Origin: Cedecea neteri
Lineage (GTDB): Bacteria > Pseudomonadota > Gammaproteobacteria > Enterobacterales > Enterobacteriaceae
Assembly: GCF_000758325.1 (NCBI RefSeq)
Contig: NZ_CP009459.1
Location: 2,108,001-2,172,000, forward strand
DNA: 64,000 nucleotides
Direction of reading: 5' to 3'
The translations under genes were made by a program, and so were the position numbers. Below the pieces are notes generated by a model. It saw only the letters and a list, made by a program, of their open reading frames with translations, had not been told where the DNA came from and did not search any database. Shown one piece after another: positions 11,414-48,613 of this stretch. The stretch's first letter is position 1. Every line of letters begins with the position of its first letter.

Positions 11414-11573
11414 CCCCTCACCCCGACCCTCTCCCCATGGGGGAGAGGGAGAAAACAACAGGTCAGAACGGCAGGCAATCTATTCCCTCTCCCCAAAGGG
11501 GCGAGGGCGAAACAGGTGACGGAGAGCACTGTCTATCCCCTCTCCCTTTTAGGGAGAGGGTTAGGGTGAGGGT
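11414..11573. repeat. REP-like cluster, three palindromes (mak-sbcC)
   Basis: Three stem elements of the CCCTCTCCC / GGGAGAGGG type: the first opens CCCCTCACCCCGACCCTCTC, the last ends TTTTAGGGAGAGGGTTAGGG. They lie between the convergent mak and sbcC ends, where araJ is found in E. coli. Confidence 0.85.
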
Positions 11574-41015: not shown

Positions 41016-41987
41016 ATGGCATGCGGTGAGTTTTCCCTGATTGCCCGTTACTTCGATCGCGTTACAAGTTCTCGTCGTGATGTGGAAGCCGGTATTGGCG
41101 ACGACTGTGCGTTGCTGTCGGTACCCGAAAAACAACTGCTGGCGATCAGCACCGATACGCTGGTGAGCGGTAATCACTTCCTGCCGGATATCGATCCGCG
41201 GGATTTGGGCTATAAGGCGCTGGCGGTGAATTTAAGCGATCTGGCCGCAATGGGCGCAGATCCCGCCTGGCTGACGCTGGCGATCACGCTCCCGGAAGTG
41301 GATGAAGCGTGGCTGGAGGCATTCAGCGACAGCCTGTTCGAACAGCTGGATTATTACGATATGCAGCTGATTGGCGGCGACACAACCCGCGGTCCGCTTT
41401 CCCTGACGTTGGGCATTCACGGTATGATCCCTGCCGGACGAGCGCTCAAGCGTAGCGGTGCAAAAGCCGGGGACTGGATCTATGTCACCGGCACGCCGGG
41501 CGACAGCGCGGCTGGCCTTGCTATCCTGCAGGAACGTCTGCAGGTTGCGAATGCACAGCATGCGGATTACCTGCTCAAGCGACATTTACGCCCAACGCCG
41601 CGTGTTTTACACGGCCAGGCGCTGCGCGATCTGGCCAACAGCGCCATCGATCTTTCTGACGGACTGATTTCCGATCTCGGTCATATCCTGAAGGCCAGCG
41701 ACTGCGGGGCACGTATCGATCTCGATTTGCTGCCGTATTCCGAAGCATTGCGCGAGCATGTTGAACCAGAGCAGGCGCTGAAATGGGCGATGTCCGGGGG
41801 CGAAGACTATGAGCTGTGCTTCACCGTGCCGGAGCTAAACCGTGGCGCACTGGACGTGGCTATCGGCAATCTGGGCGTGCCTTATACCTGTATCGGGCAG
41901 ATTGTTTCTGCGTCGGAAGGGTTACAGTTTACCCGCGAAGGGAAGCCGGTGACGCTGGAGATGAAGGGTTACGACCACTTTTCGTAG
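41016..41987 (+). CDS. thiL: Thiamine-monophosphate kinase
   Basis: ATP-dependent phosphorylation of thiamine phosphate to thiamine diphosphate, cytoplasmic. 323 residues (325 in E. coli). AIR-synthase-like fold: [64 protein letters not shown], and [15 protein letters not shown]. In E. coli pgpA follows with overlap; here the stop is followed within about a dozen bases by a tandem repeat array. Confidence 0.97.
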
Positions 41988-41999
41988 TGGCTGGTCATG

Positions 42000-42582
42000 A
42001 CCCTCACCCCAACCCTCTCCCTAAAAGGGAGAGGGGGTTAAAACAATAAAGTCTCCTCTCGGTCTTCAAGTTAAGGGGACTTAAGGCGACAACGATTTTC
42101 CCCCTCACCCTAAAAGGGAGAGGGGGCTAAAACAATAAAGTCTCCTCTCGGTCTTCAAGTTAAGGGGACTTAAGGCGACAACGATTTTCCCCCTCACCCT
42201 AAAAGGGAGAGGGGGTTAAAACAATAAAGTCTCCTCTCGGTCTTCAAGTTAAGGGGACTTAAGGCGACAACGATTTTCCCCCTCACCCTAAAAGGGAGAG
42301 GGGGCTAAAACAATAAAGTCTCCTCTCGGTCTTCAAGTTAAGGGGACTTAAGGCGACAACGATTTTCCCCCTCTCCCTAAAAGGGAGAGGGAGCTAAAAC
42401 AATAAAGTTTCCGCTCGGTCTTCAAGATAAGAGGACTTAAAGGCGACAACGATTTTCCCCCTCTCCCTAAAAGGGAGAGGGGGCTAAAACAATAAAGTTT
42501 CCGCTCGGTCTTCAAGATAAGAGGACTTAAAGGCGACAACGATTTTCCCCCTCTCCCTTTGGGAGAGGGCCGGGGTGAGGGC
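42000..42582. repeat. Tandem array of 89-90 bp REP-containing units
   Basis: Six direct copies of an 89-90 bp unit: a REP-like head (CCCTCACCCTAAAAGGGAGA) plus a spacer of about 55 bases containing AACAATAAAGT and GGTCTTCAAG. Unit junctions (GATTTTC) fall at 42094, 42183, 42272, 42361, 42451 and 42541, closed by a last inverted head to 42582. Copies 1-4 are 89 bp and nearly identical, alternating GGTTA/GGCTA; copies 5-6 are 90 bp with shared changes (TTTCCGCTCGG, AAGATAAGAGG). The pattern indicates recent expansion, partly as dimers. It fills the thiL-yajO gap where pgpA lies in E. coli. No coding capacity is credible. Confidence 0.92.
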
Positions 42583-42584
42583 GA

Positions 42585-43559
42585 TTATTTATACCCTGCC
42601 ACCGGATGCCGCTGATACGGGGTTTCCAGCTCGGCAATTTCTTCCTGCTTCAACGTTAAATCTACGGCACCCAGTAAATCATCCAGCTGTTCCTGCCTTG
42701 AAGGGCCAATAACAGGCGCGGCAATACCCGGTTTGCTGAGCAGCCAGGCCAGCGCTACCTGCGCGCGTGAAACGCCCTTATCCGCTGCGATATTTGCCAG
42801 CCGCTCGGCGATAAGCGCGTCGTTTTCGTTATTGGTCTGGTACAGCGATTTTCCCACTTCATCCGAGACGGATCTGGCTGTGGTATCTCCCCATGGCCGA
42901 GTCAGCTTGCCGCGCGCGAGAGGGCTCCACGGGATCACCGCAATATTTTCTTTGTAGCACAGCGGGAGCATCTCCAGCTCTTCTTCGCGATAAATCAGGT
43001 TGTAATGATCCTGCATGGTGACAAACCGCGCCCAGCCTGCCTGAGACTGCAAGGCGAGGGCCTGAGCAAACTGATCGCTGCGCATTGAAGAGGCGCCGAT
43101 ATAACGTGCTTTCCCGGCCTTAACCACGTCGTTAAGTGCCTCTAGCGTCTCTTCAATGGGCGTGTTGTAGTCCCAGCGGTGGATTTGCAGTAAATCAACG
43201 TAGTCGGTACCGAGCCGTTTCAGGCTGTCATCAATTGAACGCAGGATCTGTGGGCGGGAGAGGCCCTGAGGTAAATCGCCAACTTTGTTGTAAACCTTAG
43301 TGGCAACCACAACGTCCTGGCGGCGAGCAAAGTCGCTCAGCGCACGACCTAAGATCTCTTCGCTGCTGCCGTCGGAGTAGTTATTTGAGGTGTCGAAGAA
43401 ATTGATGCCGTTTTCCAGCGCATGGCGAATTATCTCCCGGCTGCTCTCTTCGGGAAGCGTCCAGGCATGGCTGCCGCGGTCCGGTTCGCCAAAGGTCATG
43501 CAGCCGAGGCAAAGGCGGGAGACGTTAAGGTCGGTGGTACCTAAAGGATTGTATTGCAC
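42585..43559 (-). CDS. yajO: Aldo-keto reductase YajO
   Basis: NADPH-dependent aldo-keto reductase, 324 residues, same as E. coli YajO, which has been linked to xylulose 5-phosphate to 1-deoxyxylulose conversion and thiamine supply. TIM-barrel family blocks: CLGCMTFGEPDRGSHAWTLP, INFFDTSNNYSDGSSEEI with catalytic Asp and Tyr, VVVATKVYNKV with Lys, LLQIHRWDYNTPIEETL with His, and VIPWSPLARGKLTRPWG. The stop lies two bases after the repeat array. Next to dxs as in E. coli. Confidence 0.95.
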   Translation of the reverse strand: MQYNPLGTTDLNVSRLCLGCMTFGEPDRGSHAWTLPEESSREIIRHALENGINFFDTSNNYSDGSSEEILGRALSDFARRQDVVVATKVYNKVGDLPQGLSRPQILRSIDDSLKRLGTDYVDLLQIHRWDYNTPIEETLEALNDVVKAGKARYIGASSMRSDQFAQALALQSQAGWARFVTMQDHYNLIYREEELEMLPLCYKENIAVIPWSPLARGKLTRPWGDTTARSVSDEVGKSLYQTNNENDALIAERLANIAADKGVSRAQVALAWLLSKPGIAAPVIGPSRQEQLDDLLGAVDLTLKQEEIAELETPYQRHPVAGYK

Positions 43560-48451: not shown

Positions 48452-48613
48452 ACCCTTACCCCGGCCCTCTCCCTAAAAGGGAGAGGGAGAATTCAGGGGA
48501 AGTGCTCTATCCCTTTTAGAAAGAGAGTTCTGATTAGCTCGATTTCTCGAAAGAAGAGGGAGTGCACAGTCCTGGTTCCCTCGCCCCTTTGGGGAGAGGG
48601 TTAGGGTGAGGGG
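48452..48613. repeat. REP-like cluster (thiI-yajL)
   Basis: Left element ACCCTTACCCCGGCCCTCTC with AAAAGGGAGAGGG, a degenerate middle stem around 48505-48530, and right element CCCTCGCCCCTTTGGGGAGA ending GGTTAGGGTGAGGGG. It lies between the convergent thiI and yajL ends. Confidence 0.85.

Follow-up and report, generated by a model that had tools for sequence, protein, structure and literature searches.

An array of 89-90 bp tandem repeats between thiL and yajO of Cedecea neteri, probably grown between two inverted TM_ECO palindromes

The DNA considered here is a window of 64,000 nucleotides from the chromosome of Cedecea neteri, a 4.66 Mb single contig (genome G000) whose closest relatives are other Cedecea genomes. 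Within this window the convergent genes thiL and yajO are separated by six head-to-tail copies of a unit of 89-90 bp (42013-42548), followed by a seventh palindrome that begins at 42549. Tandem Repeats Finder reports the same array at 42013-42558, with a period of 89, 6.1 copies, 97% matches and a score of 976. The features of the locus are as follows, the copies as read from the sequence.

41016-41987, forward strand: thiL, thiamine-monophosphate kinase; open reading frame of 323 amino acids with a full-length alignment to thiL of relatives
42001-42035, reverse strand: left boundary, complete TM_ECO motif with the third strand outermost, CCCTCTCCC TTTTA GGGAGAGGG TTG GGGTGAGGG; fits the published consensus (PMC4666352)
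42013-42101, forward strand: copy 1, palindrome and spacer, 89 bp
42102-42190, forward strand: copy 2, 89 bp, CCCTCACCC stem variant, GGCTA
42191-42279, forward strand: copy 3, 89 bp, CCCTCACCC stem variant, GGTTA
42280-42368, forward strand: copy 4, 89 bp, identical to copy 2
42369-42458, forward strand: copy 5, 90 bp, second lineage
42459-42548, forward strand: copy 6, 90 bp, second lineage
42549-42581, forward strand: right boundary, complete TM_ECO motif, CCCTCTCCC TTT GGGAGAGGG CCG GGGTGAGGG; exact pattern match (G000:C1:2150549-2150581)
42585-43559, reverse strand: yajO, convergent to thiL; open reading frame of 324 amino acids, annotated as yajO in E. coli

The copies fall into two groups. 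Copies 1-4 differ from one another at 0-2 positions and copies 5 and 6 at one, while comparisons across the groups show 6-8 differences. A GGTTA/GGCTA marker reads T, C, T, C over copies 1-4 and C in both copies 5 and 6. A sequence-only reading of this DNA had described six near-identical copies of 89-90 bp with these variants, and their place, number and variants are all borne out. A search for the hairpin pattern gave 19 matches in the window, seven of them within the array, and none in 100 shuffles.

The array between thiL and yajO is real, though the assembly that contains it is not a clean one. A terminal redundancy of ~21 kb was left untrimmed and its two copies show many indel differences, so an assembly artefact has to be considered. 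Such an artefact would hardly produce copies whose variants are distinct and ordered, nor clean ends at two unlike boundary motifs, and on these grounds the array is judged real despite the terminal repeat. Moreover, the indel-rich way in which the two contig ends differ hints at long reads, each able to span 550 bp, and similar arrays occur in a separate assembly, that of the Cedecea genome G002. All told, an artefact is highly improbable.

The redundant contig ends deserve a remark of their own. Positions 1-21159 of the contig (G000:C1) and about 4638142-4659311 (L115-L118) are 99.5-99.9% identical, with 67 gap openings and 1 mismatch, and apparently represent a circular overlap that was left untrimmed when the genome was deposited. 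The redundancy makes pgpC appear twice, with one copy split across two frames. In addition, a 1.56 kb segment (G000:C1:12801-14365; L118:801-2365) is inverted in one end copy relative to the other, is bordered by short inverted repeats, and adjoins an open reading frame for a Gin/Pin-like serine recombinase among phage-tail-like open reading frames. It looks as though a single assembly has captured an invertible tail-fibre module in both its phases.

What kind of element is being repeated? The sequence-only reading spoke of a REP unit, a label that does not fit. The palindrome, CCCTCTCCC-loop-GGGAGAGGG, is of the TM_ECO (potential intrastrand triplex) type and not a classical enterobacterial REP/PU (GTAG-3) element, which would show a GCCGGATG...-type palindrome with a GTAG end (PU pattern quoted from PMC2884548). 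The consensus of TM_ECO, the "intrastrand triplex" motif of E. coli, is CCCTCNCCCN3-6GGGNGAGGGN3GGGNGAGGG (Holder 2015, PMC4666352). The right end of the array (42549-42581) matches it exactly and the left end (42001-42035) fits it on the minus strand, an assignment made by sequence that speaks of triplex potential only. The third strands of both end motifs face outwards. The inner palindromes consist of the two-strand stem alone, leaving the two end elements as the only full TM_ECO motifs of the array. Across the G000 chromosome there are 191 exact matches to TM_ECO and none to a reversed control pattern, and in the part listed these matches are mostly inverted pairs of the same orientation. 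The window has two more groups of TM-type palindromes, one a triplet and one a pair with wide spacing, at 11427-11572 and 48465-48612.

The array shares properties with several known systems. Like the TM_ECO or PIT elements of E. coli (PMC4666352), it is intergenic, has the consensus at both ends in an inverted pair, and is associated with instability of its locus. The E. coli loci are reported to undergo mainly deletions and mutations, whereas in Cedecea the stretch between the motifs has been amplified, and the inner copies differ in having no third strand. As in BIMEs and tandem REP clusters (PMC3733652, PMC2817692), palindromes and flanking DNA are reiterated in tandem between genes, but the array has no GTAG-3 (GCCGGATG...) PU sequence, its units stand in one direct orientation and are inverted at the end only, and no RAYT was found in the Cedecea genomes. 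The array also resembles bacterial minisatellites (VNTRs), in which a unit of 10-100 bp is repeated directly, head to tail, internal variants occur and the copy number differs between relatives. What sets it apart from these is the inverted TM motif at either end, its probable seed.

Another conceivable origin is that successive REP/BIME units were inserted by a transposase through RAYT activity. The TM motifs are indeed dispersed over the chromosome and mostly paired where listed, as REPINs and BIMEs are. That said, a search for the Y1 transposase family of TnpA-REP (RAYT) proteins, PF01797, gave no match in any of the eight Cedecea genomes and a positive result in the E. coli control, so RAYT-driven spread at thiL-yajO was rejected. 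Also, a locus-specific spacer has been copied along with the unit, and the full motif stands at the outer ends only; this origin is extremely improbable. A spacer that is itself mobile was discarded as well, since it was found at no other site in G000 and in neither plasmid nor phage collections.

The position of the array invites a second question, that of pgpA. The order in E. coli is thiL, then pgpA with a 23 nt overlap, then yajO in convergent orientation; in C. neteri the last thiL codons retain the stretch that overlaps the pgpA start in pgpA-bearing relatives. The sequence-only reading held that the array stands in place of pgpA. The gene is indeed gone, with no PgpA match anywhere in the 4.66 Mb of G000, but no causal link to the array follows: the sister genomes have no pgpA at this locus either, and most have no such array. 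The thiL-yajO locus is without pgpA in all eight Cedecea genomes, the seven other gaps having been read directly and the loci of G000, G001, G002 and G004, together with the insert of G006, examined by tblastn also. Genome-wide absence is displayed for G000, G001, G003, G005 and G007.

These gaps are diverse, measuring 41 bp in G001, 96 in G003, 127 in G004, 94 in G005 and 158 in G007. G002 has a gap of 541 bp that holds an independent array of its own, ten units of 46-48 bp, and G006 (strain RIT693) has an unrelated 2.8 kb insert. This insert (L045:4970-7803) includes two open reading frames, by appearance a membrane protein and an M20-type amidohydrolase. As the sister loci hold short gaps (41-158 bp), a different array or unrelated DNA, the idea that the array replaced pgpA was rejected, and the similarity of the array's length to that of pgpA is a coincidence. 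Since all the Cedecea loci are without pgpA and the sister genera Buttiauxella and Dryocola keep it, pgpA was most likely lost first and the array arose later, in one lineage.

E. coli tolerates the loss of pgpA alone. Both pgpB and pgpC are present in G000 and should take care of the enzyme step. Nor is Cedecea alone in this loss. Enterobacter, Lelliottia and a strain named Citrobacter freundii M-21 are also without pgpA after thiL (L058, L060-L063, L065-L067, L070, L071, L076 and L078 in Enterobacter and Lelliottia; L059 in C. freundii M-21), and in the four genomes of this group that were tested the gene is missing genome-wide. The gap after thiL in these strains holds mostly REP-like palindromes. 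In a thiL tree, Enterobacter and Lelliottia fall in a group separate from Cedecea, which suggests independent losses of pgpA. Repeated loss across the Enterobacteriaceae is possibly worth surveying.

The history of the array itself is best approached from G007, where a single copy of the array's spacer sits between two TM motifs spaced by 90-91 bp, giving a single-unit orthologue. With G007 as outgroup, copies 1-4 are derived at alignment columns 42, 60 and 72 (one deletion and two substitutions), and copies 5-6 are derived at 46 and 65. Between copies 1 and 6 there are 5 substitutions and 1 indel, fewer than the 14-16 substitutions that separate them from G007, and the first duplication is therefore probably younger than the split from G007. 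Gene conversion among the copies could give the array a falsely young look. The two-lineage pattern agrees with the recent, stepwise amplification first proposed from the sequence. The accompanying proposal that growth went partly by dimers fares less clearly: it accounts for the alternating T, C, T, C marker but needs an extra change to explain the state of the stem at column 6 (T, A, A, A in copies 1-4), leaving a contribution of dimers possible. Dimer steps are credible in general, given that two unit types alternate clearly in another array of G000, at 207.3 kb.

These observations probably, and with good confidence, reflect the tandem growth, between convergent genes, of a stretch enclosed by two inverted TM_ECO palindromes, by slippage or unequal exchange. 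The ancestor would have had one TM pair about 90 bp apart, the state still seen in G007. Since the TM stem (CCCTCTCCC-loop-GGGAGAGGG) is palindromic, two inverted elements share one sequence in direct orientation. The inverted pair could thus double as direct repeats, between which replication slippage or unequal sister exchange would duplicate one stem and the spacer with no need of a transposase. The third triplex strand is retained at the two outer ends only. An early duplication would then have given the two lineages, copies 1-4 and 5-6, each copied again later; the pattern is plain, and we infer the order from it. Loss of SbcD, part of a nuclease that acts on hairpins, was considered as a cause of such expansions and rejected, SbcD being present in all eight Cedecea genomes.

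Both thiL and yajO have the array in their 3' regions, and it could be asked whether it has been selected there, its hairpins shielding the two mRNAs from 3' exonucleases or ending transcription in substitution for the former pgpA sequence. The genes are convergent, folding is far above that of shuffles on both strands (z -12.5 and -10.8), no U-tailed intrinsic terminator is predicted in the array, and the yajO stop codon is only 3 bp from the right TM motif. Searches of known RNA families returned weak matches only, far below gathering scores. Transcribed hairpins at both gene 3' ends may influence mRNA ends or decay. Yet the sister genomes manage with one hairpin, a 41 bp gap or, in one case, the 2.8 kb insert, and any 3'-end effect is accordingly taken, provisionally, as a by-product. 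Arrays of the same build are found at other loci, and Holder et al. (PMC4666352) ascribe no general regulatory role to the TM motif. A selected 3'-end element is unlikely; the array is most likely selectively near-neutral.

The preferred reading, expansion between inverted palindromes, gains from the finding that the thiL-yajO locus is not special but one of several such arrays in G000. At least five more TM-bounded arrays are present (6.0 x 67, 8.7 x 59, 5 x 53, 4.2 x 49 and 3.8 x 71 bp), a lower bound that comes from chosen TM loci, with widely spaced pairs picked deliberately, and gives no rate. Arrays of this set are located at 207.3, 430.5, 558.3, 868.0 and 1451.0 kb of G000:C1. The 6.0 x 67 bp array consists of alternating dimer units. 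At the 868 kb locus, where G000 has 8.7 copies, the sister species G004 has a single TM pair, and the locus is ~470 bp shorter in G004, G005 and G007 than in G000. Copy number thus differs between Cedecea species, one genome per species being compared.

E. coli does not serve as a model for such expansion. Among 60 records spread over 5387, its TM pair between lldD and trmL shows only equal or shorter lengths, which counts against expansion as a general rule and agrees with the deletions that Holder et al. (PMC4666352) describe at E. coli TM loci. Inverted TM_ECO pairs may nonetheless be genome-wide minisatellite seeds in Cedecea, driving fast species- or strain-specific changes of copy number at many intergenic loci by expansion, in contrast to the prevailing loss in E. 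coli; this wider proposal is a tentative one, and somewhat doubtful. The array between thiL and yajO suggests a simple route by which pairs of inverted palindromes can become tandem arrays without a transposase, and the presence of multiple arrays in one genome may provide typing loci, or natural tests of palindrome-caused replication slippage.
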